Below are positions 40,539 through 56,593 of a stretch of 64,000 nt of DNA, piece after piece. The notes beneath the pieces were generated by a model. It was not told the origin of the DNA. It made no database searches and saw nothing but the letters and a program-made list of their open reading frames with translations. Position numbers and translations under genes: made by a program. The stretch is taken from contig NZ_VSRN01000001.1 in NCBI RefSeq assembly GCF_008369915.1, positions 3,468,501-3,532,500 of the forward strand, in the 5' to 3' direction. Positions within the stretch are counted from its first letter, which is position 1. The number at the start of each line of letters is the position of its first letter. Source of the DNA: Dyadobacter sp. UC 10 (GTDB lineage: Bacteria > Bacteroidota > Bacteroidia > Cytophagales > Spirosomataceae).

Positions 40539-40564
40539 GGGCTGCTCTCGGGCAGCCTTTTTTA
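40539..40564 (+). terminator. Rho-independent terminator of the lipoprotein gene
   Basis: GGCTGC (40540-40545) pairs with GCAGCC (40552-40557), followed by seven T residues. It runs into the last codon of the convergent NarL-like gene. Confidence 0.82.
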
Positions 40565-41227
40565 TTTCTTCAGTGCCAGGCTGACCAGCTCTGCGGTATT
40601 CTTCACATTCGTTTTCTTCATGATACTTGCCCGCTGGTTAGCAACGGTATTGGAGCTGATTTCGAACTTTTCGGCAATATCCTTGCTGCTCATTCCTTCG
40701 ATCAGGCATTTGAGGATCTGTTGCTCGCGGGGCGTCAGGATATTCCAAACGAATTTTCCTTCCAGCTCTGCGGCTTCCGGCTCTGGTTGCGGCGTAACCA
40801 ATACTTGTTTAAGCAACTTGCGAATGATAATGGACGAGGCATAAGGTGGAAAATACAGCTCGCCCTTTGCAATAGCACGGATCGCACGCAGCATTTCGTC
40901 TCGGCCCGTATCTTTTTGAAGATAACCCGAGGCGCCACTTAACGCGGAAGTGAGAATATAGTCTGGATTGGTATGCATACTGAAAACCAGTATTTTAACA
41001 TGCGGAAAGGCGGGGACTATCTGTTTGATCACATCCAATCCCGACAGGCGCGGCATGGTCAGGTCGAGCAGGATCAGGTCCGGATTCACTTTTTCGACCA
41101 TATCCCACACTTCATCCCCATCGGAAGCTTCGCCCGCGATACGCAGGTCCTCTTCGTCTTCCAGCAAAGTGATAATCCCTTGTCTTACAACAGAATGGTC
41201 GTCAACAACCAATATCCTGATCGGCAT
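40562..41227 (-). CDS. NarL/FixJ-family response regulator
   Basis: 221 residues. The receiver has VVDDHSVVRQG at the start, phosphorylated Asp in LILLDLTMPRLSGL and Lys in LQKDTGRDE. The C-terminal LuxR-type HTH contains LTPREQQILKCLIEGMSSKD and SSNTVANQRASIMKK. It lies 17 bp after the NarX-like kinase gene and is the last gene of the leftward nirB-nirD-kinase-regulator group, so control of the nitrate island is the natural inference. Confidence 0.9.
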   Translation of the reverse strand: MPIRILVVDDHSVVRQGIITLLEDEEDLRIAGEASDGDEVWDMVEKVNPDLILLDLTMPRLSGLDVIKQIVPAFPHVKILVFSMHTNPDYILTSALSGASGYLQKDTGRDEMLRAIRAIAKGELYFPPYASSIIIRKLLKQVLVTPQPEPEAAELEGKFVWNILTPREQQILKCLIEGMSSKDIAEKFEISSNTVANQRASIMKKTNVKNTAELVSLALKK

Positions 41228-41244
41228 TTTTTTTAAGTATCAGT

Positions 41245-42675
41245 TCATAAATCAACTTCCAGGACCAGTTTAGTGCCCCCGTCAATTCTGGAAATGATCT
41301 CTATTTTTCCATTGAGGAGCTGGCTTCTGGTGCGGATGTTCTCCATCCCGTTCCCTGTCGCAAATGAATGCTTTTCGGTTTTGACTTTATCCAGCGAAAA
41401 CCCTTTTCCATTGTCCGCGATCTCCAAAATAACACGATTCCCGGTGTGTTCCAATTTAATCTTGATCCCGCTGGCCTGCGCGTGCTTCAAGGCATTATTC
41501 AATGCTTCCTGTGCAATGCGGTACAGACTCGTTTCCATAACGCGGCTCATCGGGATCCGCTCGTTAGTATTTCCTTCAAAATCAACCTTTGCCCCGGAAA
41601 CTTCGGTAGTCTGGTCGCAGAGTAATTTCAAAGCAGAGGTAAGGCCAAAATCATTCAGTACCGAAGGCATTAAATTGAAGGAAATCTGGCGGGTGGTTTG
41701 GATAATATCCTGGATCAAAGAAACCAGCTGTTCAAATCGCCTCTGATTTTTTTCGTCGTGAAATTGAACCGACTTCAATTTCTCCGCATGCAGTTTGAGC
41801 CCGGTGAGCATTTGGCCGATGCCATCGTGCAGTTCCAGTGCAAATCTTTTCCGCTCCTCCTCCTGGCCTTCGATCAGCGAAGCGGCCCGGATCCGGTCCT
41901 CAGCCAGTTGAAGCTCGTATTTTTCTTCCTCCACCCGCAACAATTCATTCTGTGCATCAAGCAGTTGCAGGTTTGCTTCTTTTAATTTTTGGTTAGATAG
42001 CTGCAATGCGACTTCCGACTCGGTCAACATCCGCACAACTCTCCTGGTCGTGTTGACCACCGGCCGGAAAATCAGCAAACCCTCCGCCAGCAAAACCAGA
42101 ATGGTCATAATATCGAGTATCCACTCTATTCTTTCCAGGTTTTCGAGCCGTTGAAAGCTTTCCTGGTCAAACTGGAAAACGATCCTGTCCATCTTGCCCA
42201 GATACAACGGCTCATTTCTAAGAACCACCTGTAATGCAATTTGCATTTGCGGGGAGGCACTACTATCCTGATCAATCGCCAGAAACTGGCTGTACATTTC
42301 ACTGAATACAGGTTCCAGTTCCCGGAACATCGTATCCAGTGCCGCGCTTTTCCAGGTTACAATGCCATTTTCAATAGGTAACCTCCGGCTAGCCAGCTGC
42401 TCGTGACTGGTTTTCCATTGATTTAAAAGGGACGAAAACTGAACACGATCCTGCGGCGCAGTTTTATTCGCTTTAAGTAAAGCAAGCTTGGTAAGCCGCT
42501 GGCTGAGCATTCGCTGCCTGCCGGCGACATTCACGACGCGACTATCGTGGTTCAGGCTGCTGATCGTTCTCCGAATTAAGAATAACCCACTGATAGTCAG
42601 CAATGCGACTACGCAGAGTGCTACTACATAAAACCTGGTCAGACTTCCTGCTACCCGTTTGTCGAGTCTCTCCAT
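41245..42675 (-). CDS. NarX-like nitrate-sensing histidine kinase
   Basis: 476 residues. Two membrane helices (about 15-32 and 187-206) bracket a periplasmic PilJ/NarX-type domain whose first helix reads VVNVAGRQRMLSQRLTKLAL; an arginine in this stretch is the nitrate ligand in NarX-family sensors. After a coiled coil come HisKA_3 (ALELHDGIGQMLTGLKLHAE, His phosphorylated) and an ATPase domain with IADNGKGFSLDKV. The gene lies between nirD and a NarL-like regulator, which supports nitrate or nitrite sensing in this operon. Confidence 0.87.
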   Translation of the reverse strand: MERLDKRVAGSLTRFYVVALCVVALLTISGLFLIRRTISSLNHDSRVVNVAGRQRMLSQRLTKLALLKANKTAPQDRVQFSSLLNQWKTSHEQLASRRLPIENGIVTWKSAALDTMFRELEPVFSEMYSQFLAIDQDSSASPQMQIALQVVLRNEPLYLGKMDRIVFQFDQESFQRLENLERIEWILDIMTILVLLAEGLLIFRPVVNTTRRVVRMLTESEVALQLSNQKLKEANLQLLDAQNELLRVEEEKYELQLAEDRIRAASLIEGQEEERKRFALELHDGIGQMLTGLKLHAEKLKSVQFHDEKNQRRFEQLVSLIQDIIQTTRQISFNLMPSVLNDFGLTSALKLLCDQTTEVSGAKVDFEGNTNERIPMSRVMETSLYRIAQEALNNALKHAQASGIKIKLEHTGNRVILEIADNGKGFSLDKVKTEKHSFATGNGMENIRTRSQLLNGKIEIISRIDGGTKLVLEVDL

Positions 42676-42679
42676 TTGC

Positions 42680-43033
42680 TCATAATCCGATGTACACCAG
42701 GTTTTCCCTGACCATCACCGGGAAAGTTTTGATTTGATAGGCATCGTCATTGAAACACTGCCCGGTCTGTAATGAAAACGTCTTTTTGTGAAAAGGACAA
42801 GCCACTTTCGGCTCGCCGTCGTGGCTCCCGATCATCCCGCGCGAAACTGCCATTTGCTGTCTGTGCGGACATTCATTATCGGTCGCATACCATTCACCCC
42901 GCCGGGCAAAGTTAAATATAGCGATTTGTTTGCCGTCGATAAACGCGCAGCCGCCGCCATCTTCGGGAATATCGCTTACATGGCAGGCGATATGCCATGT
43001 TACTTGCGTATCAATGTTAGTTTGGGTTTCCAT
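42680..43033 (-). CDS. nirD: Nitrite reductase (NADH) small subunit
   Basis: 117 residues. A Rieske-like ferredoxin fold: TDNECPHRQQMAVSRG and KVACPFHKKTFSLQTGQC both keep Cys-x-His and Cys-x2-His, so a [2Fe-2S] cluster is probably bound, unlike the cluster-free E. coli NirD. It assists the large subunit encoded upstream (to the right). The heptamer-repeat region at 43067-43200 separates it from nirB. Confidence 0.9.
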   Translation of the reverse strand: METQTNIDTQVTWHIACHVSDIPEDGGGCAFIDGKQIAIFNFARRGEWYATDNECPHRQQMAVSRGMIGSHDGEPKVACPFHKKTFSLQTGQCFNDDAYQIKTFPVMVRENLVYIGL

Positions 43034-43202: not shown

Positions 43203-45719
43203 CTACACCCACTCCTTTGCTCTTTTCTGCTCCCTCATTTCTTCAAATTGAATCGAAGGATCTTTTACAGGGGTATTGACAAAATGAGAGAAGCGCTTTC
43301 TTAGCTCAGGGTTATCTACTACCTCTTTCCACTCGCATTGGTAGACATCGATCAGCTGCTGCAAGTCTCTTTCCAGCTCTGCTGCAATGCCCAGTACGTC
43401 GTCTACTACCACTGCTTTCAGGTACGAGATGCCGCCTTCCATTTTATTCAGCCAGGTTGCAGTGCGTGCCAGCGGGTCGGCGGTTTTGATATAAAACATC
43501 AGGAAACGGTCGATCAGGCGGAGGCAGGTTTCTTTGTCCACATCCGTCGCCAGTAATTGTGCGTGCTGCGGTTTGGAACCGCCGTTTCCGCATACATATA
43601 GGTTCCAGCCTTTTTCAGTGGCGATAATCCCGAAATCCTTGCTCTGCGCCTCGGCACATTCGCGAATGCAACCCGAAACCGCAGATTTCAGCTTATGCGG
43701 CGAGCGCAATCCTTTGTACCGGTTTTCCACTTCAATCGCAAAACTCACCGAATCCTGTACCCCAAACCGGCACCAGGTGGAGCCGACGCAGCTTTTGACA
43801 GTCCGCAAAGATTTCCCATAAGCGTGCCCGCTTTCAAAGCCGGCATGGATCAGCTCTTCCCAGATCTGCGGCAGATCGCCCAGGTGTGCGCCGAACAAAT
43901 CAATGCGCTGGCCGCCGGTAATTTTGGTATATAAGCCGTAACGCTGCGCCACCTGCCCGATCACGATCAGTTTTTCCGGGGTTACCTCGCCGCCGGGGAT
44001 TCTTGGAACAACCGAATAAGTGCCGCCTTTCTGAATATTGGCCAGGTAGCGGTCGTTCGAATCCTGAATAGGCGCTCGGTCTTTTTGCAGAATGCTTTCA
44101 TTCCACAAACTCGCCAGCAGCGAAGCGACAAGCGGTTTGCAGGTTTCGCAGCCGTCGCCTTTTCCGAAGGTATCGAGTACGTTTCCGTAGGTTTTCAAAC
44201 CATTCATTTTGACCAGATCCAGCAACTCCTGCCGCGAATAATCAAAATGCTCGCAGACCACATTCCTTATATAGACCCCATTTTGTTTCAATGTGCCGGC
44301 GATAATATCTTTCACCATCGGAATGCAACCGCCGCAACCCGTGCCGGCTTTACATGATTTCTTGATCGAATCAATGGTATGGTTGCCGTTTTCGCTCACT
44401 TCGTGGCAAAGCATTCCTTTCGTTATTGCCTCGCAGGAGCAGATCAGCGCATCGTCGGGAAAGCTCATTACGCCCGCACCGGTTTCTTCTCCGCCCCTCG
44501 ATCCTAATATCAAATCTTCCGAATCCGGTGGCAGGATTGTCTTGCTTTTGCACGTTTGGAGCAGCATATTATATTGCTCCGCGTCGCCTACCAGGATTCC
44601 GCCCAGCAGCGTTTTTCCGTCAGGACTTACGTTAATGCGTTTGTAAATCCCCTTGGCTTTATTTTCGTAACGCACTGTGGTGCAGGCAGGCTCTTCTATG
44701 AAAGGGTCACCGAAACTGGCTACATCGGTACCGATCAGTTTGAGCTTGGTTGACATATCGAAAGGCAAAAATTCCTTCGCGCCGTCGGTCAGCCTGGTGG
44801 CGACTACATCGGCCATTTCGTAGCCAGGCGCGATGAGTCCGTAAATCATATGGTGCGCGAGGGCGCATTCTCCAATAGCAAAAATGTTCGGATCGGAGGT
44901 TTGCAGCTGATTATCGACGATAATGCCGCCTCTCGGGTGCGTTTCCAGGCCCGCAATTTTGGCAAGCTCGTCACGCGGACGTATTCCCGCAGAAATCACG
45001 AGCATATCGACTTCCAGAAACGATTGGTCCGCAAACTGCATTCCCTCAATACAATCCCCGCCTGTAATTTCCTGCGTGTTTTTGGAAAGATGAATATGCA
45101 GTCCCAGGCTTTCCAACTGGCTTTGCAGCATTCTGGAACCCGCTTCGTCGATCTGCCTTGGCATTAACCGCGTAGCAAATTCCACTACGTGTGCTTCTTC
45201 CAGGCCAAGGTCAAGCAATGCTTTTGCAGCTTCCAACCCCAATAATCCCCCTCCGATCACCGCACCTTTTTTGGCTTTGCGTGCGTACGATTGAATCAGT
45301 TCAAGGTCTTCAATGGTTCGGTACACGAAAACACCATCCTTTTCAACTCCGGGGATCGTAGGAACAAACGCGCCCGAGCCGGTGGCCATGATCAGGTAGT
45401 CATATTGTACTACGATCCCATGGTGGGAGCGAACCAGCTTCTGTTCCCTGTCAATATCGACGACAGGATCGGATAGATAGATCGCTATGCCATTTTCGGC
45501 ATACCAATCTTCGCCCGCCAGTGTGAGGTCTTCTGCGGATTTGCCGGCAAAGTATTCACTTAAATGCACGCGGTCGTAGGCCACGCGGGGTTCTTCGCCA
45601 AATACAGTAATACTGATTTCCTGACCCGCCTGCCGTTTCGCCAGCAGTTTTTCACAAAACTTGAAACCGACCATTCCATTGCCGATCACTACGATTCTGG
45701 TGCCTGATTTTTGATTCAT
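43203..45719 (-). CDS. nirB: NADH-dependent assimilatory nitrite reductase, large subunit
   Basis: 838 residues. Reduces nitrite to ammonium with six electrons. An FAD/NADH domain (about 8-310; VIGNGMVGFKF) is followed by a BFD-type [2Fe-2S] domain (Cys427, Cys429, Cys462, Cys465), a second BFD-like segment (GDGCETCKP near residue 521), a nitrite/sulfite reductase ferredoxin-like domain (about 560-625) and the siroheme/[4Fe-4S] domain with Cys644, Cys650, Cys684 and Cys688 (CVGSTWC and CIREC). All four cluster cysteines are present. nirD and regulator genes follow on the same strand. Confidence 0.96.
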   Translation of the reverse strand: MNQKSGTRIVVIGNGMVGFKFCEKLLAKRQAGQEISITVFGEEPRVAYDRVHLSEYFAGKSAEDLTLAGEDWYAENGIAIYLSDPVVDIDREQKLVRSHHGIVVQYDYLIMATGSGAFVPTIPGVEKDGVFVYRTIEDLELIQSYARKAKKGAVIGGGLLGLEAAKALLDLGLEEAHVVEFATRLMPRQIDEAGSRMLQSQLESLGLHIHLSKNTQEITGGDCIEGMQFADQSFLEVDMLVISAGIRPRDELAKIAGLETHPRGGIIVDNQLQTSDPNIFAIGECALAHHMIYGLIAPGYEMADVVATRLTDGAKEFLPFDMSTKLKLIGTDVASFGDPFIEEPACTTVRYENKAKGIYKRINVSPDGKTLLGGILVGDAEQYNMLLQTCKSKTILPPDSEDLILGSRGGEETGAGVMSFPDDALICSCEAITKGMLCHEVSENGNHTIDSIKKSCKAGTGCGGCIPMVKDIIAGTLKQNGVYIRNVVCEHFDYSRQELLDLVKMNGLKTYGNVLDTFGKGDGCETCKPLVASLLASLWNESILQKDRAPIQDSNDRYLANIQKGGTYSVVPRIPGGEVTPEKLIVIGQVAQRYGLYTKITGGQRIDLFGAHLGDLPQIWEELIHAGFESGHAYGKSLRTVKSCVGSTWCRFGVQDSVSFAIEVENRYKGLRSPHKLKSAVSGCIRECAEAQSKDFGIIATEKGWNLYVCGNGGSKPQHAQLLATDVDKETCLRLIDRFLMFYIKTADPLARTATWLNKMEGGISYLKAVVVDDVLGIAAELERDLQQLIDVYQCEWKEVVDNPELRKRFSHFVNTPVKDPSIQFEEMREQKRAKEWV

Positions 45720-45994: not shown

Positions 45995-46753
45995 ATGGAA
46001 GCTAAACTAACACTGGTTGGTGCAGGCCCTGGAGACGGCGAGCTGATTACCCTGAAAGGGATCAGGGCACTGGAAAAAGCGGACGTCGTATTGTACGATG
46101 AACTTGCCTGTAACGCGCTGCTGGAATTTGCTCCCGCGCATGCCATGAAAATCTACGTCGGGAAAAAGGCGGGTAAGCCTTCATTTTCTCAGGAGGAGAT
46201 TAATGGGCTGATTGTGCGGCTGGCCAGGAAGAAAGGCCACGTAGTACGATTGAAAGGCGGCGATCCATTCGTATTTGGCCGTGGCCATGAGGAAATGGAA
46301 TATGCGAGAGATTTTGGCTTAAAGGTTGAGCTTGTCCCGGGCGTTTCAAGTTGTATCTCGGTGCCTGCTTCCATGGAAATTCCCGTTACCCGCCGGGGGG
46401 TGAGTGAAAGTTTCTGGGTGATCACGGGAACAACCCGCGACGGCGCGCTTTCGGATGATCTGCAACTTGCGGTACAGTCAAAAGCAACCGTGGTGGTATT
46501 GATGGGAATGAGCAAGCTGAATGAGATATGCGCACTTTACAAACGTTTCGGACGCGGGCATTTGCCGATGGCCGTTGTTCAGAACGGCACGCGGCCGGAT
46601 GAAAAAAGTGTGGTGGGGCAGGTTTGGGAAATGCCGCAGCTTGTGAGGGAACACCAGATCGGTACCCCGGCGATTATGATCATGGGCGAAGTTGTGGCCC
46701 TGCATCCTGCTTACGCATTGGAATATTTGCATAGTAACGGGATCGCTTGCTAA
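45995..46753 (+). CDS. cobA: Uroporphyrinogen-III C-methyltransferase
   Basis: 252 residues. SUMT transfers two methyl groups to uroporphyrinogen III, giving precorrin-2 for siroheme. LVGAGPGDGELITLKGIRAL near residue 6, VRLKGGDPFVFGRG near residue 84 and VPGVSSCISVPA are the family signatures. It lacks the CysG-type oxidase/chelatase part. As first gene of the rightward nitrate operon it would supply siroheme to NirB. Confidence 0.95.
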   Translation: MEAKLTLVGAGPGDGELITLKGIRALEKADVVLYDELACNALLEFAPAHAMKIYVGKKAGKPSFSQEEINGLIVRLARKKGHVVRLKGGDPFVFGRGHEEMEYARDFGLKVELVPGVSSCISVPASMEIPVTRRGVSESFWVITGTTRDGALSDDLQLAVQSKATVVVLMGMSKLNEICALYKRFGRGHLPMAVVQNGTRPDEKSVVGQVWEMPQLVREHQIGTPAIMIMGEVVALHPAYALEYLHSNGIAC

Positions 46754-46777: not shown

Positions 46778-48130
46778 ATGAAAACAGCTATATGCATGGT
46801 AATAGCGGGTTTGTCAGCATTGCTGGTAACCCCGGGAGCGTTGGCTCAGTTCAGTCTGTCGGGCCAGCTCCGTACCCGCACCGAACTATTGCACGGGCAG
46901 GGTTCGCCTTTGTCGAAAAGTGAAAAGCCTGCATTCTTCACCTCCCAGCGTACCAGGCTGAATGCAGGTTACAAAGGTTATAGAATGCAATTTTTTACAG
47001 CTTTGCAGGATGTGCGGGTCTGGGGGCAGGATGCTTCTACCAATAACAGGGTCACTAATCAGGCCCAGAATGGGCTGATGCTGCACGAGGCCTGGGGAGA
47101 GATCAGTCTGCTGGATACGAACAAAACCAAATCCGGCAAAGTAGTTGCGATTAAAATCGGTAGACAGGAATTGCTTTATGACGAGAGCCGGCTGCTGGGG
47201 AATCTGGACTGGCTCCAGCAGGCGAGGCGCCACGACGGTGTTTTGGTTAAATTTGAGAACAATGGTTTTCTTGCTCATCTAGGTGCTGCGTATAACCAAA
47301 ACCGTGAGGTTAGGAGCGGTGTTTTGTACGACGGAGTTCCGGTGGGTTACGCGGCTGGGACAAACGGCATTGGTACAATGTATAAGTCCATGCAGTTTGC
47401 ATATTTAGGCAAGAAATATAAAAAAGGTAATGCTTCTTTTCTGTTGTTTAAAGATGATTTTCAAAAGTATAAGTTAGATTCAGCGGGGGCGAGAAACCTG
47501 CGTCCCGGCACATGGAATCGCATTACGGCCGGACCTTACCTGCAGACTTCATTGGGCAAATTTTGGAACCTGACTGCCAGCGCCTATTATCAGACCGGAA
47601 AAGACAAAGACGGAAAATCGTTGAGCGCGTGGATGTATTCGGTGCGCGGCTTGTACAATATGACCCGCAATTTTGCAGTAGGCCCTGGCTTTGATTACAC
47701 TTCCGGCTCGTCGGCAGGATCTGCCAAAAATCACACCTTTGATCCATTGTATGGAACGCCTCATAAGTTTTGGGGACAAATGGATTACTTCTATGCGGCT
47801 AATGGTTTTGGTCGCGGCGGCCTGGCAGATTTTTACATCAATACCATTATCAAACCTACCCAGAAACTGACGATACAGGCTGATCTGCACCAGTTTTCCA
47901 GTGCTGCTGTCGTCAGAAATGCGCGTGACGAAAAGCTCTCATCTAATTTTGGGAGCGAGCTTGACCTGATCGCCACTTATAACCTTACCAATATGGTCAG
48001 CTTCCAGGGCGGATATTGCACTTTCCTTCCTACGGGTAGTCTGGCGGTGGTTAAAAATGTAAAAGATCCGCAGAAAATGGCTAACTGGGCTTACCTGATG
48101 ATCCAACTCAAACCCGATTTTTTGAAGTAA
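46778..48130 (+). CDS. Alginate-export-type outer-membrane porin
   Basis: 450 residues. A signal peptide ends near ALA-Q; the mature part has alternating hydrophobic strands and aromatic girdles typical of a monomeric beta barrel of the alginate_exp family (FSLSGQLRTRTELLHG, IKIGRQELLYDESRLLG, RRHDGVLVKF). The location between cobA and the nitrate transporter suggests passage of nitrate or nitrite across the outer membrane rather than alginate export. The function is inferred from context alone. Confidence 0.8.
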   Translation: MKTAICMVIAGLSALLVTPGALAQFSLSGQLRTRTELLHGQGSPLSKSEKPAFFTSQRTRLNAGYKGYRMQFFTALQDVRVWGQDASTNNRVTNQAQNGLMLHEAWGEISLLDTNKTKSGKVVAIKIGRQELLYDESRLLGNLDWLQQARRHDGVLVKFENNGFLAHLGAAYNQNREVRSGVLYDGVPVGYAAGTNGIGTMYKSMQFAYLGKKYKKGNASFLLFKDDFQKYKLDSAGARNLRPGTWNRITAGPYLQTSLGKFWNLTASAYYQTGKDKDGKSLSAWMYSVRGLYNMTRNFAVGPGFDYTSGSSAGSAKNHTFDPLYGTPHKFWGQMDYFYAANGFGRGGLADFYINTIIKPTQKLTIQADLHQFSSAAVVRNARDEKLSSNFGSELDLIATYNLTNMVSFQGGYCTFLPTGSLAVVKNVKDPQKMANWAYLMIQLKPDFLK

Positions 48131-48169: not shown

Positions 48170-49486
48170 ATGGAAACAACTCAGAAACCTCTTGAGAAAT
48201 TAAATATTTTTAGTTTCAAAGGTGTACAAATGCGGACCTTTCATCTTACCTGGATTGCGTTCTTTCTATGCTTTTTCGGTTGGTTTGGACTGGCTCCGCT
48301 GATGACAGTTATTAAGAAAGACCTTGGACTGAGCAAGGAACAGATTGGTAATATTATCATCGCATCTGTGGCTGCAACGGTGGTGGCCAGGATCCTGATC
48401 GGCAAACTTTGCGATTCGTGGGGGCCGAGGAAAACATACGCGGCGCTCATGGGCGTTTGTTCTATTCCCGTCATGTCCGTCGGGCTGGTGCATTCCTACG
48501 AAGCATTCCTGCTTTTCCGCCTCGCAATCGGGGTGATCGGCGCTTCGTTTGTAATCACGCAGTACCATACTTCGGTGATGTTCGACAAAAAAATTGTGGG
48601 TACGGCCAACGCAGTAGCTGGTGGATGGGGAAACCTGGGCGGCGGGATCACCAATATGGTCATGCCGCTTGTTTTCGGGTTTTTCGTTAGCATGGGTTAT
48701 CTGCCTGAGTCGGCCTGGCGTGTGGCGATGATCATTCCCGGGGTTCTGCTTTTCGTTTTCGCATTCGTTTATTATCGTTTTACAAAAGATACCCCGGCCG
48801 GCAATTTTGAAGACCTGGAAATTTCCAGTGAAAAGTCAGTGAAAACGAAAGGAGCATTGGCAAAAGCAGCCAAAGATCCGCGTACCTGGGCATTGTTTCT
48901 GGCTTACGGAGCTTGTTTTGGGATAGAGATTACATTTGATAACGTGGCGGCGCTTTACTTTTTTGAAAACTATGAAACTTCGCTGGCTACCGCGGGGATA
49001 CTGGCAGGTGCTTTCGGTTTCATGAACATTTTCGCCAGGGCAATCGGTGGGATTGTGGCTGATAAGGTGGGCAATAAGTATGGTATGATCGGAAAAGGTA
49101 GGTTGCTCGCCGCATTATTATGTTTGGAAGGCATTGGAATAGCACTTTTTGCGCAAAGCAGCAGCCTGGCAGTGGCGGTTATTACGATGCTGGGTTTCGC
49201 GATGTTCCTCAAAATGGCGAATGGGGTCACATACGCAATCGTCCCTTTTATTAACAGAAAAGCGATCGGCTCGGTGAGCGGGATTGTGGGAGCAGGCGGA
49301 AATGTAGGCGCAGTGCTGGCTGGGTTTCTGTTTAAATCAAGCTCTATTTCCTATTCGGAAGCATTTATGTATATCGGTGGCGCTATTGCCTGTATTGCGG
49401 CGGTTGTCGCATTAATCAATTTTGAGAAGGAACAGGCCGTCATGGCAGAGACCCTTTCGCCGTCGGCTGAGGCCGTGGGGAGTTGA
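48170..49486 (+). CDS. NarK/NasA-type nitrate/nitrite MFS transporter
   Basis: 438 residues with 12 membrane helices. The nitrate-porter signature GGWGNLGGGITNMVMPL near residue 145 and the second GIVGAGGNVGAVLAG near residue 366 are both present. The N-terminal MRTFHLTWIAFFLCFFGWFG opens helix 1. It imports nitrate across the inner membrane and lies directly before the nitrate reductase gene. Confidence 0.93.
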   Translation: METTQKPLEKLNIFSFKGVQMRTFHLTWIAFFLCFFGWFGLAPLMTVIKKDLGLSKEQIGNIIIASVAATVVARILIGKLCDSWGPRKTYAALMGVCSIPVMSVGLVHSYEAFLLFRLAIGVIGASFVITQYHTSVMFDKKIVGTANAVAGGWGNLGGGITNMVMPLVFGFFVSMGYLPESAWRVAMIIPGVLLFVFAFVYYRFTKDTPAGNFEDLEISSEKSVKTKGALAKAAKDPRTWALFLAYGACFGIEITFDNVAALYFFENYETSLATAGILAGAFGFMNIFARAIGGIVADKVGNKYGMIGKGRLLAALLCLEGIGIALFAQSSSLAVAVITMLGFAMFLKMANGVTYAIVPFINRKAIGSVSGIVGAGGNVGAVLAGFLFKSSSISYSEAFMYIGGAIACIAAVVALINFEKEQAVMAETLSPSAEAVGS

Positions 49487-49581
49487 GCGTTAGCAGTGTC
49501 GCACCTCCGTCGGCTGAAGCCAACGGTTATTGAAAGGGCGAGATGTTTCACTGCCGCTGATTGCACCAGTGCCCCATTTAC

Positions 49582-49613
49582 TCATTCACTCATTCAATCA
49601 TTCACTCATTGAA
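49582..49613 (+). repeat. Octamer tandem repeat at the nitrate reductase start
   Basis: Four consecutive 8-bp units lie end to end: TCATTCAC, TCATTCAA, TCATTCAC, TCATTGAA. The only convincing start codon of the downstream gene, TTG 49609-49611, is inside the fourth unit. An 8-bp change in length shifts the reading frame of whatever is read through it. Confidence 0.65.
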
Positions 49614-52600
49614 AACACCTCAAACATCCTACAAATCGACCTGCTGTTACTGTGGCGTAGGCTGCGGGGTGGTGGTGACGAAAGAAAGCAATGGTCAGCT
49701 GAGCCTCGAAGGAGATAAAGAGCATCCTTCCAATAAGGGAATGCTTTGTTCCAAAGGGATGAACCTGCATTATACCGTAATGGACCAGTCGGACAGATTG
49801 TTGTATCCACAAATGCGTATGAACCGGTCTATGCCGATGCAGCGGGTAACCTGGGACGACGCACTGGAAAGGACTGCTGCGGTTTTCAAGACATTCATTA
49901 AGAAATTCGGGCCTGATTCGGTTGCCTTCTATGTTTCAGGGCAATGCCTGACGGAAGAATATTACCTGGTCAACAAGCTGATTAAAGGCTTTATCGGCTC
50001 CAATAACATAGATACCAACTCGCGGCTCTGCATGAGCTCGGCGGTAATGGGTTATAAGCTGGCACTGGGTGAGGACAGCGTGCCTGTGTGCTATGATGAT
50101 ATCGAGGCGGCCGATGTTATGTATGTGACGGGCGCCAATCCTGCCTGGTGCCATCCTATTATCTGGCGGCGGATCGAGGCGCATAAAGCGGCTAATCCGG
50201 ATGTGAAAATTATTTGCGTTGATCCGCGCCGTACCGATACAGCGCGTTCTTCCGACCTGCATTTGCAAATCATTCCCGGCACTGATATCGTGCTGAATCA
50301 CGCAATAGGAAGGTTATTGATTGAAAAAGGGTATGTGAATAATGAGTTTATCCTCGATCATACCGACGGTTTCCAAGCCTATTGTGAAAAGGTCATGCAG
50401 CGCACGATCGCAGAGGCTGCGGAACTATGCGGTGTTGAAAAGGCGGATATTGAGCTGGCGGCCGATTGGATCGGGCAGTCGCGCGGATTTTTGTCTTTTT
50501 GGACAATGGGATTGAACCAGTCGGTGATTGGTGTGAATAAAAATTTGTCCCTCATTAACCTGCATTTGATAACCGGCAGGATCGGTACCCCGGGAAACGG
50601 GCCTTTTTCGCTTACCGGCCAGCCGAATGCGATGGGCGGTCGTGAAACGGGCGGATTAGCGAATATTTTACCCGGCCACCGGGAGGTAGCCAACGCAACG
50701 CACCGACAGGAGCTGGAAGCATTCTGGGGTACTCCGGCTGAGATTGGCAGCAAGCCCGGACTTACAGCTACGGAGATGTTTGAGGCGCTCGCAGATGATA
50801 AACTGAAAGCGATCTGGATCATTAATACCAACCCGCTGGTGAGTATGCCGGATATGAATGCCGTGGAAAGTGCATTGAAGAAAGCGAGATTTGTGGTGGT
50901 GCAGGATGTTTCCAATCGGGCGGATACTGTGCATTTTGCAGATGTTGTATTGCCTGCGGCGGCCTGGCTGGAAAAGGAAGGTACGATGACCAACGCGGAG
51001 CGGCGTATTACACATTTACCCAAAGTAGTGAACTCTCCGGGAGAAGCTTTGCCCGACGCCGAAATTATCTGGCGGTTTGCTGCCAAAATGGGTTTTGGCA
51101 ATTCATTCAGTTATAGTGCCGTTTCCGAGGTTTATGATGAATATGTGAAAATCACCGCCGGCACTAAAATCGATGTTACCGGAGTGAGCCATGCGGTTTT
51201 ACAAAAAAACAGAAGTGTACAGTGGCCATTCCCTGCACAAAATAGCGCATTTGAAGAAAGGAAAAATAACGCCCGGCTTTTTACGGATCACCAGTTTTAT
51301 ACTCCCAACAAAAGAGCGCAGATCCACGCGGTCGACGATGAAAATACGTCGGAGCCGGCGGACGAAGATTTTCCGTTGATTTTGACGACCGGCAGGATCA
51401 GGGACCAGTGGCATACGATGACGAAAACCGGTCGCGTCGCAAAGTTGAACAAGCACATTCCCCAACCATTTTTACAAATACATCCCTACGACGCGGGAAA
51501 GCGCAATATCAGTGAAGGTAACCTGGTTATTGTGCGGGGCAGGAGAGGGGAAGTGCGGGTAAAAGCGCAGGTTACCGAAGACGTGCGGCCGGGTTTGTGT
51601 TTCCTTCCCATGCATTGGGGGAAAATATTGGGAAGCAATGGAGTGAGAGCCAATAACATCACCAGTTCTCTGGTCGATCCCAGGTCTAAGGAGCCGGATT
51701 TCAAATTTTCCGCGGTTGAGGTTTGTTTGTACCAAAAACCGGTTGAAAAGATCATTATAATAGGAGCTGGCTCGGCTGGTCTGGGTTTTATCAATGCGTA
51801 TCGGGCATTGAATCAGGCGGATGAAATTCATGTGTTTTCCAAAGAGGTCAATCCATTTTATAACCGGGTAATGCTGCCCGACTATATCAGCGGTGCGCAG
51901 CGTTGGGATCAGCTGGTCAGATTGCGTGAAGATCAATTTGAGGAGCATAATATTATCGTACACAAAGGACTAGGCATTTCCAATATTGACCGAAAAAACA
52001 AGATCGTAATCGATACCGACGGGCAGGAGCACACTTATGATCGGCTTATCCTGGGTACAGGTAGCCGTGCATTTATGCCAAAAGGAGTGCCACGTTTAAG
52101 AGGTATTTTCAATATGCGCTCGCGCCCGGATGCAGATGCATTGCTGCCCTTTTTAAAACAAAAAGACCCACACGCCGTGATTGTCGGCGGTGGTATATTA
52201 GGGTTGGAATTAGCGGCTTCTTTTCTGGAAATGAATGCGCGGGTGACGGTAATCCAGCGCAGCGGCCGGTTTATGGAAAGGCAGCTGGATACGCTTGCCA
52301 GTGAATTGCTGTATCAGGAGTTGCTCGACAGAGGTGTTGAAGTGTTCTTTAACGATGAAGTAGCCACGTTTTCGGGTACCGGTCAAGTAGAAGGTATCCG
52401 GCTGAAATCAGGCAGAAAACTGGATTGTCAGGTAGTTGTGATGACAATGGGTACGGTCCCGAATATTGAATTGGCCCAGGAAGCCGGGCTGGAATGCAAG
52501 CGCGGGGTGGTCGTGAATGATTATATGCAGACCTCCGACCCATCTGTTTATGCAGCGGGAGAAATTGCCGAATGGAACGGCAAAATGTGGGGCATAACGC

Positions 52601-53142
52601 TCGGCGCGGAGGAGCAGGCAGCTGTGATTGCCAATTATCTGGCGGGCGACATTTCCCAACCTTATAAAGGAAGTATCTCCATCAATATCCTGAAAATGGA
52701 AGGATTGCATCTGTGCAGCATCGGACTCACCGAAGTGCCGCCAAATGATCCTGCCTATGAGCAGATCGTTTTCACAGATCAGTCGAAAAGATATTATAAA
52801 AAATGCATCGTTCACCGCGACAGGCTCGTAGGGGCGATTATGATCGGGGACAAAAATGAGTTTGCTGAATTCCGCGACCTGATCGCCAGCGGTTCTGAAC
52901 TTTCGGAGAAACGGTTGCAGCTATTGCGCGCCAGCAAGCAGGCCGATCCGCTTTCGGGGAAGTTGGTTTGCTCCTGTAACAATGTAGGGGAAGGAAACCT
53001 GGAAAAGGAGATCAGGGAGGGTTGTACCGATTTCCAGCAGCTTTGTACAAAAACAGGAGCGGGTACAGGTTGCGGATCATGCCAGCCGGAAGTGAAGTCA
53101 ATCTTAAAAAAAATAGTGGAGGAAAGTCTGGTTGCAATCTAA
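49609..53142 (+). CDS. Assimilatory nitrate reductase fused to FAD/[2Fe-2S] NAD(P)H-input module
   Basis: 1,177 residues from TTG 49609; a TTG at 49561 is the only other start before an in-frame stop (49558-49560), and no ATG is available. Residues 1-60 hold a [4Fe-4S] motif with Cys12, Cys15, Cys19 and Cys47 (Cys-x2-Cys-x3-Cys-x27-Cys). The Mo-bisMGD domains follow (about 55-700; ITGRIGTPGNGPFSLTGQPN, TTGRIRDQWHTMTKTGR). From about residue 714 an FAD domain (IIIIGAGSAGLGFINAY) and near 1,120 a BFD-type [2Fe-2S] domain (CSCNN...GTGCGSC) repeat the front of NirB. One chain could take electrons from NAD(P)H and reduce nitrate to nitrite. Confidence 0.92.
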   Translation: MKTPQTSYKSTCCYCGVGCGVVVTKESNGQLSLEGDKEHPSNKGMLCSKGMNLHYTVMDQSDRLLYPQMRMNRSMPMQRVTWDDALERTAAVFKTFIKKFGPDSVAFYVSGQCLTEEYYLVNKLIKGFIGSNNIDTNSRLCMSSAVMGYKLALGEDSVPVCYDDIEAADVMYVTGANPAWCHPIIWRRIEAHKAANPDVKIICVDPRRTDTARSSDLHLQIIPGTDIVLNHAIGRLLIEKGYVNNEFILDHTDGFQAYCEKVMQRTIAEAAELCGVEKADIELAADWIGQSRGFLSFWTMGLNQSVIGVNKNLSLINLHLITGRIGTPGNGPFSLTGQPNAMGGRETGGLANILPGHREVANATHRQELEAFWGTPAEIGSKPGLTATEMFEALADDKLKAIWIINTNPLVSMPDMNAVESALKKARFVVVQDVSNRADTVHFADVVLPAAAWLEKEGTMTNAERRITHLPKVVNSPGEALPDAEIIWRFAAKMGFGNSFSYSAVSEVYDEYVKITAGTKIDVTGVSHAVLQKNRSVQWPFPAQNSAFEERKNNARLFTDHQFYTPNKRAQIHAVDDENTSEPADEDFPLILTTGRIRDQWHTMTKTGRVAKLNKHIPQPFLQIHPYDAGKRNISEGNLVIVRGRRGEVRVKAQVTEDVRPGLCFLPMHWGKILGSNGVRANNITSSLVDPRSKEPDFKFSAVEVCLYQKPVEKIIIIGAGSAGLGFINAYRALNQADEIHVFSKEVNPFYNRVMLPDYISGAQRWDQLVRLREDQFEEHNIIVHKGLGISNIDRKNKIVIDTDGQEHTYDRLILGTGSRAFMPKGVPRLRGIFNMRSRPDADALLPFLKQKDPHAVIVGGGILGLELAASFLEMNARVTVIQRSGRFMERQLDTLASELLYQELLDRGVEVFFNDEVATFSGTGQVEGIRLKSGRKLDCQVVVMTMGTVPNIELAQEAGLECKRGVVVNDYMQTSDPSVYAAGEIAEWNGKMWGITLGAEEQAAVIANYLAGDISQPYKGSISINILKMEGLHLCSIGLTEVPPNDPAYEQIVFTDQSKRYYKKCIVHRDRLVGAIMIGDKNEFAEFRDLIASGSELSEKRLQLLRASKQADPLSGKLVCSCNNVGEGNLEKEIREGCTDFQQLCTKTGAGTGCGSCQPEVKSILKKIVEESLVAI

Positions 53143-53153
53143 GATTTCTGATT

Positions 53154-54611
53154 ATGAGAGACTATTACACCGTGAAAGTCAACCTCCCCGGAGGCATTGC
53201 TTCACCAGGATTTTTGAAGGAAGTGCTGTTGTCCGCAAGTGAAGCAAATGTACGGAAAGTGCGCTTTGGCTCTCGTCAGCAGATGCTGATGACCGTGCAT
53301 TATGAGGATATGCGGTTTCTGGAAAAACATTTTAAACAAAAAGAGATCCGTTATGAGTTGAATACCGACCGGGAACCGAATATAGTAAGTTCATACTGTG
53401 GGGAGGATGTTTTTAAAACGGGCCAGTGGCTGGTCGCAAATGAATATCATTCAGTGCTCGACAGCATTGACTATCAACCCGCATTAAAGATCAATATCTC
53501 GGATTCGAACCAAAGTTTTACTCCTTTTTTTACTGGCAACCTCAATTTTATTTCTTCTCCCGAGCCGCATTTCTGGTATTTGTATGTGCGACCGAAGCAA
53601 AGTAATGTGGTATTCCGGTGGCGGGAGCTGATTTATACGAATGAAATAGGGAAAGTAGCGAAAGCTGTGGAGGAATGCATGTTGACGGAAAATGTGACAG
53701 AGGAAAAAACTTTGTTTCAGGCGGTCAGCGAAAGGATTCACTACATTTCGCAGCCAGCTGCACAAGAATTGGAACTACCGTCTTTTTCCTTACCCTATTA
53801 CGAAGGCTTTAACAGGTATGAATCGCGGACCTGGCTGGGATTATACCGCAGGGATGAATTGTTTACGGTAGATTTTTTACTGGATGTCTGTGCGCTTTGT
53901 CTAAAAACGAAGATCGGTGAAATTTGTCTTACACCCTGGAAATCCATTATCATTAAAAACATCGAGGATCAGTACCGGAATCAGTGGAGCGGCATTCTGG
54001 GCAAACATAACATTAACGTCCGGCATGCAGCGAATGAGCTGGCCTGGCAAACAGAGGATCATCACGACGAAGGCGCGATCCTGAAAAATGATCTGATACG
54101 ATACTTCGCGAAACACGATACACGCACTTTTGGTCTTTGCTTCGGTATACAAACGCGCCCCAAATCGGAAGTTTTTGGTTCCGTACTGATAAAAAAGCGG
54201 CCCCTTTTACGCATCGGGCAGCTCGCTGTTTTTAGTCAATACGACATTTATTTTACTGAAAATTTCAACCCAAACAGCCGCCGCCTGATCCTTTTCGAGA
54301 AGGGACTTTATAAAATGCAGCTTGCAGTGCAACTGGAAAGGCTCTGCCGCAGGTTCAACAATAATCGTCTGAAAGAGGAGATGCAAATGGTGGCGTCGGA
54401 GATGAATGATCCGGAGTCATCCACCAGGCACATTCACCAATGCCCAGATTGTTTTACTGTTTATGATGAAAATTTTGGGGATCCTGTCCAGGCTATTCCA
54501 TGCGGTGTTCCATTTGCGGACTTACCCGAAAACTATTGCTGTGCAGTATGCGGGACGGGAAAATCAGAAATGGTATTAGCGGAGGAAATGATAGCAACCG
54601 CCGATTTTTAA
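53154..54611 (+). CDS. Nitrite/sulfite-reductase-like protein with C-terminal rubredoxin
   Basis: 485 residues from ATG 53154, 11 bp after the nitrate reductase stop. Residues about 1-420 look like two ferredoxin-like halves of the nitrite/sulfite reductase fold (VNLPGGIASPGFLKEVL with VRKVRFGSRQQMLM, and later TKIGEICLTPWKSIIIKN, matching the LRLTPWQ pattern). The siroheme/[4Fe-4S] cysteines (CxxxxxC and CxxxC) are absent. Residues about 427-475 are a rubredoxin (CPDCFTVYDENFGDP, GVPFADLPENYCCAVCG) with all four iron cysteines. A role as electron carrier or assembly partner for the nitrate or nitrite reductase is inference. Confidence 0.8.
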   Translation: MRDYYTVKVNLPGGIASPGFLKEVLLSASEANVRKVRFGSRQQMLMTVHYEDMRFLEKHFKQKEIRYELNTDREPNIVSSYCGEDVFKTGQWLVANEYHSVLDSIDYQPALKINISDSNQSFTPFFTGNLNFISSPEPHFWYLYVRPKQSNVVFRWRELIYTNEIGKVAKAVEECMLTENVTEEKTLFQAVSERIHYISQPAAQELELPSFSLPYYEGFNRYESRTWLGLYRRDELFTVDFLLDVCALCLKTKIGEICLTPWKSIIIKNIEDQYRNQWSGILGKHNINVRHAANELAWQTEDHHDEGAILKNDLIRYFAKHDTRTFGLCFGIQTRPKSEVFGSVLIKKRPLLRIGQLAVFSQYDIYFTENFNPNSRRLILFEKGLYKMQLAVQLERLCRRFNNNRLKEEMQMVASEMNDPESSTRHIHQCPDCFTVYDENFGDPVQAIPCGVPFADLPENYCCAVCGTGKSEMVLAEEMIATADF

Positions 54612-55266: not shown

Positions 55267-55626
55267 TTGGAGAGTTTCCTGCCGCTTATCGAGTTAATCT
55301 TACCGGATTTTATAATTGAGAATTACTTACTGACCCATGTAGAGAAGTCAGAGGAACGTTATCACGTCTATTTGGAAGAGAAAAATTATCCAGAAGCTGA
55401 TCCAATAAAGGCAGACTTGCTCTCCAAAGGTTATTTCCCCACCATTACCCTGCAGGATTTCCCAATTCGGGGCCACAAGGTATTCCTTCATATTAAACGT
55501 CGTAGGTGGCTCAATACCAAGACTGGCAAAGTTGTCCATAGAGACTGGACAGAAGTAGCAGAAGGCACGCGAATGACTATTGAATTCGCGGATTTTTTAA
55601 AAGAAATTGGTGGATACGAGGGCTAA
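55267..55626 (+). CDS. ISAon1-family transposase, N-terminal region ORF
   Basis: 119 residues, TTG start. It resembles the separate N-terminal ORF of ISAon1-type elements (ESFLPLIELILPDFIIENYL; HIKRRRWLNTKTGKVVHRDW), probably a DNA-binding part. Its end overlaps the second ORF by 20 bp in the +1 frame, so the full transposase could be made by frameshifting or by coupled reinitiation. Confidence 0.82.
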   Translation: MESFLPLIELILPDFIIENYLLTHVEKSEERYHVYLEEKNYPEADPIKADLLSKGYFPTITLQDFPIRGHKVFLHIKRRRWLNTKTGKVVHRDWTEVAEGTRMTIEFADFLKEIGGYEG

Positions 55627-56593
55627 TGATATTTGGAGCATTGGTCGTTTCTATGGCGTTGATGGTAGGGCTTTGCTACGGCAGTATCGTGATTTTCAGA
55701 GTGGATTTAAAGATTGGAAGCAAAGAGGTCATGCAAAAAAATGGCTCTTGTATCCCGAAAACCTAGGATCTCATCTATCGATCGACGAAACCAGTCTTTC
55801 GCACGGCGAATTGTATACAATCCTTACCAATAAATCTGCCAAAGGTGGCCGTGGCAGCATTGTAGCAATAGTGGCTGGAACTAAGGCAGAAGCAGTGATT
55901 GAAGTACTTCGCAAAATCCCGGAACCACTGCGGAAGAAAGTGTCAGAAATCACCCTGGACATGGCGGGCAGTATGTCCTTGATTGCCAAGCGATGCTTTC
56001 CACGGGCGGTGCGAGTGACTGACCGTTTCCATGTTCAAAGACTCGCAGTTGATGCCCTCCAAGATATCCGGATCAAACATCGCTGGGAAGTCCTGGATCA
56101 GGAAAGCGATGCTATTGAGCAGGCTAAAATGTCTCAGAATGAATATCATCCAGAGATATTATCTAATGGCGACACCATTAAACAGCTACTGGCTCGAAGC
56201 AGGTACGCGCTATACAAAAAGCCCAATACCTGGACAGACAGCCAAAAAGAACGCGCCCTGCTTCTTTTTGAACGCTTCCCCGATTTGAAAAAAGCGTACG
56301 AGCTAACGATAGGGCTCAGTAACATCTTCACGACTACAACGGAAAAAATATATGGGTTGACCAGATTAGCCAAATGGCATGAAAAGGTCCGGCAATCTGG
56401 CTTCAAGTCATTCAATACCGTAGCCCGCTCGATTGAAAACCACTATAAGACAATCGTTAATTACTTTGATAACCGCAGCACTAACGCATCTGCCGAATCC
56501 TTCAACGCGAAAATCAAAGCGTTCAGAGCACAGTTCAGAGGGGTAAGAAACGTTGAGTTCTTCCTGTATCGCCTTACTCAATTATATGCTTAA
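55607..56593 (+). CDS. ISAon1-family transposase (ISL3-like DDE domain)
   Basis: About 328 residues; no ATG, with TTG 55607 or GTG 55610 as possible starts inside the end of the first ORF. The DDE core is visible: LSIDETSLSHG (first Asp), ITLDMAGSM (second Asp) and NASAESFNAKIKAFR (Glu). VTDRFHVQRLAVDALQDIR is the typical ISL3 spacer region. There is no internal stop, so the element looks active. Confidence 0.88.
   Translation: MVDTRANDIWSIGRFYGVDGRALLRQYRDFQSGFKDWKQRGHAKKWLLYPENLGSHLSIDETSLSHGELYTILTNKSAKGGRGSIVAIVAGTKAEAVIEVLRKIPEPLRKKVSEITLDMAGSMSLIAKRCFPRAVRVTDRFHVQRLAVDALQDIRIKHRWEVLDQESDAIEQAKMSQNEYHPEILSNGDTIKQLLARSRYALYKKPNTWTDSQKERALLLFERFPDLKKAYELTIGLSNIFTTTTEKIYGLTRLAKWHEKVRQSGFKSFNTVARSIENHYKTIVNYFDNRSTNASAESFNAKIKAFRAQFRGVRNVEFFLYRLTQLYA

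Follow-up and report, generated by a model that had tools for sequence, protein, structure and literature searches.

Reductases of the NirA/SiRHP type (1zj8, 1aop) are built on a two-half fold based on the PF03460 domain, and CobG, the precorrin-3B synthase, is defined by a PF01077-type domain with [4Fe-4S] cysteines. NarJ and NarM work with nitrate reductase, NarM as a non-catalytic protein and NarJ likewise. In Paracoccus, where the nasABGHC genes encode the Rieske protein NasG alongside NasC and a nitrite reductase of the NirB type, the nitrate reductase NasC draws its electrons via NasB; according to excerpts of the work on this organism, NasG is required for the reduction of both nitrate and nitrite, and the electrons pass from NADH to NasB, from there to NasG and finally to NasC, three proteins that may form a complex (PMC5424462, PMC6618116).

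In the window, that is, the whole stretch of 64,000 nucleotides from Dyadobacter sp. UC 10 that was analysed, the protein that we call RUB is encoded at 53154..54611 (+), and open reading frame, Pfam and structure comparison together describe its 485 residues as a two-half NiR/SiR-like body with a rubredoxin at the C-terminus. RUB would have the two-half fold in common with NirA/SiRHP, but it lacks the PF01077 signal and the cluster ligands, and has in addition the rubredoxin and, in its second half, a CxxC that is invariant; its C-terminal 45 residues are like those of a rubredoxin (PF00301), with two CxxC knuckles, although they lie within a 485-residue protein that is tied to nitrate loci. 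Like NasG, it has a small redox centre, and its gene accompanies those of NasC and a NirB-type nitrite reductase, but the centre is a rubredoxin and not a Rieske cluster (Pfam finds no Rieske family in RUB), it is joined to a NiR-like body, and a Rieske-type NirD is separately present in the locus; moreover, the Dyadobacter NasC, unlike that of Paracoccus, has its own diaphorase. From NarM and NarJ it differs by its redox centre and its predicted NiR fold, and neither PF02613 nor PF09655 is matched by RUB at E ≤ 1. From CobG it is set apart by the definition of that enzyme, as it has no PF01077 domain and no cluster cysteines. RUB can be described as a protein of the NiR/SiR fold superfamily in which the marks of the catalytic site are lacking and to which a rubredoxin is joined.

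The NasC reading frame ends at 53142, stop codon counted, and RUB follows after 11 bp, so that the initial annotation, which had described a 485-residue protein with a complete C-terminal rubredoxin 11 bp past a nitrate reductase, agrees with both the open reading frame and Pfam. The start codon is supported by the relatives on genome contigs, which have Met at the same place in 55 of 57 cases and Val (GTG) in the other two; the nearest of these relatives are from Dyadobacter, with 85% identity. The first half domain, PF03460 (NIR_SIR_ferr), has its best stretch at residues 3–52 (53160..53309, +), which includes R41, and reaches 33.1 bits against a cut-off of 24, with two stretches at E ≤ 1; the same family is matched by all 28 RUB members tested at that threshold. 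It is followed by a conserved stretch of the N half, LKINISDSNQSFTPFFTGNLNF (residues 111–132; 53484..53549, +), in which L111, N114, Q120, G128 and N131 are each kept in 90/90 rows, and by the second ferredoxin-like half, whose boundaries, drawn from the model and the alignment, are approximate (residues 208–290; 53775..54023, +). The rubredoxin occupies residues 428–472 (54435..54569, +), with C430, C433, C463 and C466 in its two CxxC knuckles; PF00301 gives it 42.9 bits against a cut-off of 23, and iron binding is predicted. The reading of RUB as a mere rubredoxin extended at random was rejected, since body and rubredoxin are conserved to a similar degree, with a mean pairwise identity of 0.50 and 0.57 for the two halves and 0.53 for the rubredoxin.

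An AlphaFold2 model of RUB, calculated with 45 relatives as input (pLDDT 76.6, pTM 0.58), was compared with the PDB by Foldseek, and the first match was NirA of M. tuberculosis (E 2.2e-15, TMq 0.56, rmsd 6.3, 15% identity); ranks 1–31 consist throughout of NirA, SiR or plant NiR, and rubredoxins appear from rank 36. The model is weakest in the loops of the body, with pLDDT below 50 at residues 84–90, 121–123, 210–225, 289–301 and 324–327. At the sequence level, hhalign relates the RUB profile to NirA with a probability of 32% and to NirB with 19%, and the profile finds no NiR/SiR among PDB sequences, only one chance match with E 0.35. The relation to NiR is therefore weak by sequence outside PF03460, and the NiR-like fold rests on PF03460 and the model, which together suggest, with moderate confidence, that RUB has the two-half NirA/SiR fold. 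The two NiR/SiR-like ferredoxin halves that had been read from the sequence are upheld by PF03460 and by the NirA/SiR-like model, and the structure prediction that had been proposed as a check comes out on the same side, at that same moderate confidence. An origin of RUB by fission of NirB is not supported, as NirB has a single half and RUB, like NirA, has two; the scores of RUB to NirA, SiR and NirB in hmmsearch and BLAST are too weak to choose among them.

The siroheme/4Fe-4S domain PF01077 gives no match in RUB at E ≤ 1 and is absent from the 13 Pfam families matched by the 28 members, and the cluster motifs C-x5-C and CxxxC are not found in the RUB translation; when the C half is aligned with the catalytic NirA of related operons, nothing corresponds to the C-x5-C loop and a different loop stands in for CxxxC, in an alignment whose hhalign probability is only 5%. 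Without these ligands RUB has no usual siroheme site, and its loss, as judged from sequence, is well supported; siroheme-based nitrite reduction by RUB is ruled out, since PF01077 and the cluster cysteines are absent. On this point translation, Pfam and alignment all agree with the initial annotation, which had, however, overlooked conserved cysteines of the body, the invariant C246-A-L-C249 (53889..53900, +), placed by the model in a helix of the second half and kept in 90/90 rows of the conservation alignment, formed by the window and 89 further loci. The two cysteines align with Ala/Ala of NirA, again with a probability of 5%. Forty columns of the 90-row alignment show the same residue in 89 or all of the rows; the four cysteines of the rubredoxin are kept in 89, the exception being genome G126, and the polar residues R41, N76, N114, Q120, N131, E217 and K263 are each kept in all 90, with K112 in 87. 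R41 aligns with the arginine of a TTR motif in the N half of NirA (alignment probability 26%), and for K112 the alignment with the NirA lysines is ambiguous by one residue. An arginine of this kind takes part in anion binding in SiR. We infer that these polar residues, K112 included, would face the old siroheme cleft.

The surroundings of RUB make up a nitrate locus. Immediately upstream, NasC (49561..53142, +; Pfam) combines in one chain a [4Fe-4S]/Mo nitrate reductase, a NirB-type FAD/NAD diaphorase and a BFD [2Fe-2S] module; its reading frame is 1193 residues long from the listed TTG start at 49561, and the true start may be later. Further upstream are found a NarK-type nitrate/nitrite MFS transporter (48170..49486, +; PF07690), an alginate-export-like outer membrane protein or porin (46778..48130, +; PF13372) and a CobA-like uroporphyrinogen-III methyltransferase, for siroheme (45995..46753, +; PF00590), the genes at the same places in an annotated record being named as NarK family and cobA, respectively. 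On the opposite strand are NirB, the large subunit of the siroheme nitrite reductase (43203..45719, −; Pfam and alignment), and NirD, the Rieske-type small subunit (42680..43033, −; PF13806). The claim that the neighbouring NirB retains all of its siroheme ligands is confirmed, as Cys 644, 650, 684 and 688 are invariant in 9/9 NirB. Adjoining nirD are a histidine kinase with a PilJ-type sensor domain and a LuxR-type response regulator (40562–42675, −); relatives of this pair adjoin several other nitrate loci, and it is likely a nitrate two-component system. On the other side, 0.66 kb 3′ of RUB, lie an ISL3-type transposase (PF01610) and an overlapping upstream reading frame (55267–56593, +), perhaps an insertion element that uses two frames.

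A scan by sequence of genome contigs from all phyla, made with a single query and reaching close relatives, yielded 57 RUB loci from 61 pattern matches, which, going by record titles, belong nearly all to genera of Cytophagales; with the window locus and four plasmid records included, each of the 62 loci has a NasC match immediately upstream, in the same orientation. Among plasmids, 667 records have a NasC-like match and these four have RUB, all of them from Cytophagales. Among 395 Bacteroidota genomes, the RUB profile at E ≤ 1e-5 matches 123, in 29 of them over most of its length (more than 300 bits), and in the other 94 with E values of 1e-7 to 1e-13 that, among the matches listed, involve the rubredoxin end only. 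If a fused NasC is defined as a reading frame of at least 1169 residues (search at E ≤ 1e-100), it is present in 33 of the 395 genomes, 28 of which have RUB, and none of the 14 genomes holding only shorter NasC-like reading frames has it. Some genomes in these counts may be of the same species as named loci. The RUB loci come to 89 in total; 88 of them also hold NasC, and in all 88 RUB lies downstream on the same strand, with a gap between the matches of less than 360 bp in 86. The tie to nitrate loci, which was to be checked across Bacteroidota, thus holds, and RUB as a partner of the nitrate reductase NasC is well supported. The two wider gaps contain a NarM-family gene (L102) and a 269-residue reading frame with no Pfam match (L098); the former (L102:8795-9298, −) encodes a protein of PF09655, nitrate reductase associated, placed between NasC and RUB.

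Some particular loci can be mentioned here. In G126 (L109:44-1553, +) RUB consists of the body without rubredoxin, in a gene that starts near the contig end, and searches of this genome for NasC (E ≤ 1e-100) and for NirB (E ≤ 1e-40) found none; the gene may be a relic in decay, or the assembly may have a gap here. In Spirosoma telluris (L020:6311-9905, +) the matches to NasC fall into three pieces with a broken frame beside an intact RUB, possibly through an error in sequencing. The record under the name Flavobacterium sp. SUN052 (L033) carries a Spirosoma-like RUB locus with 65% identity to the window, either by transfer or through a misnamed record.

The rubredoxin itself seems to be dedicated to this pathway. 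RUB is the sole PF00301 match of the window genome (99.98% complete), and a survey of 56 genomes was made, comprising 29 with RUB, five with fused NasC and no RUB, and 22 relatives from the listed genomes without a match to RUB or fused NasC: 26 of the 29 RUB genomes have exactly one Pfam-detectable rubredoxin each, always inside RUB, and none of the 27 RUB-less genomes has a PF00301 match. The three RUB genomes with no Pfam rubredoxin are G126, G190 and G391, the last two having shortened rubredoxin loops in which the four cysteines are kept. Some other Bacteroidota have rubredoxins apart from RUB, as found in the profile search of the 395 genomes. As the rubredoxin of RUB is the sole one of its genome, its redox partners should be in the nitrate pathway, and, if this is true, a purpose would be given to the single rubredoxin of these genomes. 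Excerpts of papers on Aquirufa place a rubredoxin in the assimilatory nitrate operon (PMC12528234, PMC11861422, PMC10821818), and a strain table among them has it present or absent together with the nitrate genes in 4/4 strains. By its name and its operon this is probably the same gene as RUB, although in those excerpts it is named rubredoxin only, with no mention of the NiR-like body or of a role. Two annotated plasmid records likewise call RUB "rubredoxin", and in the excerpts of the open-licence PMC literature that were searched no description of the NiR-like body was found. These results suggest that, in many environmental Bacteroidota, the assimilatory nitrate reductase includes a conserved third component, which the name "rubredoxin" hides.

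What this component contributes has to be considered in the light of NasC. The cofactor cysteines of NasC (28, 31, 35, 63, 157, 1137, 1139, 1171 and 1174) are kept in 37/37 rows from loci with RUB, and also in the rows from loci without RUB (n = 5), except for L097, where a frame break near the N terminus causes Cys 28–63 to be read as other residues. The chain NADH-FAD-[2Fe-2S]-[4Fe-4S]-Mo thus looks complete, RUB being an addition and not a missing link, and a relay would be unneeded on paper. A signature of dependence on RUB within NasC was rejected; there is no cysteine among the seven discriminating columns. Outside these columns, Cys 129 and Cys 979 of NasC (49561–53142) are present in 35/37 and 34/37 of the rows with RUB, respectively, and in 0/5 without. 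When evolutionary distances are compared over 28 genomes, those of the RUB body correlate with those of the Mo part and the diaphorase of NasC at 0.78 and 0.77, and with those of the diaphorase and the siroheme part of NirB at 0.50 and 0.55; the partial correlations are 0.45, 0.45, −0.34 and 0.00 in the same order. These values are given without a significance test, and linked genes, being inherited together, can have a raised correlation with no contact. The distances of the rubredoxin domain hardly separate NasC (0.65 and 0.60) from NirB (0.54 and 0.55), and the body diverges at roughly double the rate of NasC or NirB, with a mean distance of 0.96 compared with 0.35–0.58. Taken at the level of sequence, the distances of the RUB body point to NasC as its partner.

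RUB is probably a dedicated helper that would either pass electrons to the adjacent nitrate reductase or assemble it, in many environmental Bacteroidota. We place roughly half of our confidence in a more specific reading, in which it would serve NasC as a non-catalytic subunit, docking via its NiR-like body and relaying electrons via its rubredoxin. On NasC, a plausible docking site for the body would be the NirB-type diaphorase/BFD module, a module that in NirB itself has a NiR domain as its natural neighbour; the diaphorase would then reduce the rubredoxin, and this would hand single electrons to the [4Fe-4S]/Mo centre of NasC, and perhaps to NirB also, in a relay akin to that of the Rieske NasG serving NasC in Paracoccus, while the invariant CxxC of the body may form a second functional site, redox or metal. 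Electron carriage is what we infer from the predicted rubredoxin domain. If this is true, RUB would be a redox pseudo-enzyme, in which the NiR fold was kept for docking or electron delivery after siroheme was lost. We count in its favour, among other points, the case of G126, where RUB has no rubredoxin and neither NasC nor NirB was found; against it we count the five genomes with fused NasC and no RUB, the complete chain of NasC, the shortened loops in two RUBs and the fast evolution of the body. This same completeness of the NasC chain favours the main rival, possible but rather doubtful, by which RUB would be a maturation or assembly factor that stands in for NarJ or NarM, with a body that holds the apo-enzyme and a rubredoxin that acts as an iron or redox helper in cofactor insertion. 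The NarJ family PF02613 is found in 0/29 RUB genomes and in 2/5 of those with fused NasC and no RUB, and PF09655 in 1/42 genomes; however, three of these five RUB-less genomes have no PF02613 either, and the single genome with PF09655, G091, has its NarM gene between NasC and RUB, so these are not simple substitutes. Hydrogenase maturation offers a parallel for rubredoxins in assembly; chaperones of the NarJ kind are not known to have a redox centre, which counts against this reading. Excerpts of the literature further indicate that a rubredoxin can be needed for assembly, in the case of photosystem II (PMC3772215), and that in Paracoccus NarJ acts as assembly factor for NasC (PMC6618116). It is improbable that RUB still acts as an enzyme or binds a ligand, the former siroheme cleft then taking up an anion or a cluster-free tetrapyrrole: the seven invariant polar residues, the nearly invariant K112 and the alignment of R41 with the NirA arginine would suit such a role, but the cluster loops are missing or replaced (in a weak alignment), the model is least certain precisely at the loops, and the placing of K112 is ambiguous.

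The companions of NasC bring NirB into the argument. NirB (E ≤ 1e-150) is present in 28 of the 395 Bacteroidota genomes, exactly the 28 with RUB and fused NasC, and in 10/10 further genomes or records from RUB loci, in two as fragments; it occurs in 0/5 of the genomes with fused NasC and no RUB, where the query meets only the diaphorase of NasC. These five operons carry instead a NirA-type reductase, four of which align at 64–91% identity, one of the four being confirmed by a PF01077 and PF03460 scan, and the fifth (L096) was assigned by profile score and motif only. This pattern, and the possible complex of NasC, NasB and NasG in Paracoccus (excerpts of PMC6618116), would accord with RUB as a bridge that brings NasC and NirBD together in a single complex leading from nitrate to ammonium, in which electrons would be shared or nitrite passed on. 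However, a NasC tree was made by a quick method with midpoint root from 42 chosen NasCs (28 from the NasC search, nine from RUB loci and five RUB-less); like the NasC alignment it omits L109, which has no NasC, and L020 and L032, whose NasC frames are broken or not long enough. A single branch of this tree (SH-aLRT 100) sets all five RUB-less NasCs apart, so that the contrast between NirB and NirA is a single event and not repeated evidence. In addition, NirB is on another contig in G190 while RUB stays by NasC, and the RUB body follows NasC more than NirB in its distances. NirB works without RUB in other phyla. We consider the bridge unlikely. Of the role first proposed, a non-catalytic docking or electron partner between the nitrate and nitrite reductases, the loss of the siroheme site and the partnership with NasC have stood as well supported, while the link to NirB is compatible with the data and goes no further, for these same reasons. 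It is also unlikely that RUB is a retired reductase of the NirA type, from which NirB would have taken over nitrite reduction, and which, having lost the siroheme site and gained a rubredoxin, would have been kept as both the hub for docking and the relay for electrons of a NasC-RUB-NirBD complex from nitrate to ammonium, whereas operons on the opposite side of the NasC tree retain a catalytic NirA. It is very hard to credit that RUB is a mere passenger, carried along in the nitrate island without being needed; it is always linked to NasC where NasC is also present, and its body changes faster than NasC and NirB, but it is found in all 28 fused-NasC genomes of the RUB side of the NasC tree, under eight family labels and in genomes found through NasC and not through RUB, and its 40 nearly invariant columns are further against this.

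The RUB-less operons have traits of their own. In L095 Pfam detects a flavodoxin and an FNR-like reductase, and similar reading frames were seen in the others. NirA, flavodoxin and FNR-like reductase share in L093–L097 a short N-terminal motif, PF(S/T)xxQ(R/K)xxLxGF (for example at L094:4070, 5881 and 6501, all +), which is present in 14/15 proteins, three per locus, the FNR of L096 being off by one residue; none was found in the window or in the other loci scanned, and the motif looks like a common docking tag. In one of these operons a globin gene (PF00042; L094:7787-8230, +) lies directly upstream of the fused NasC.
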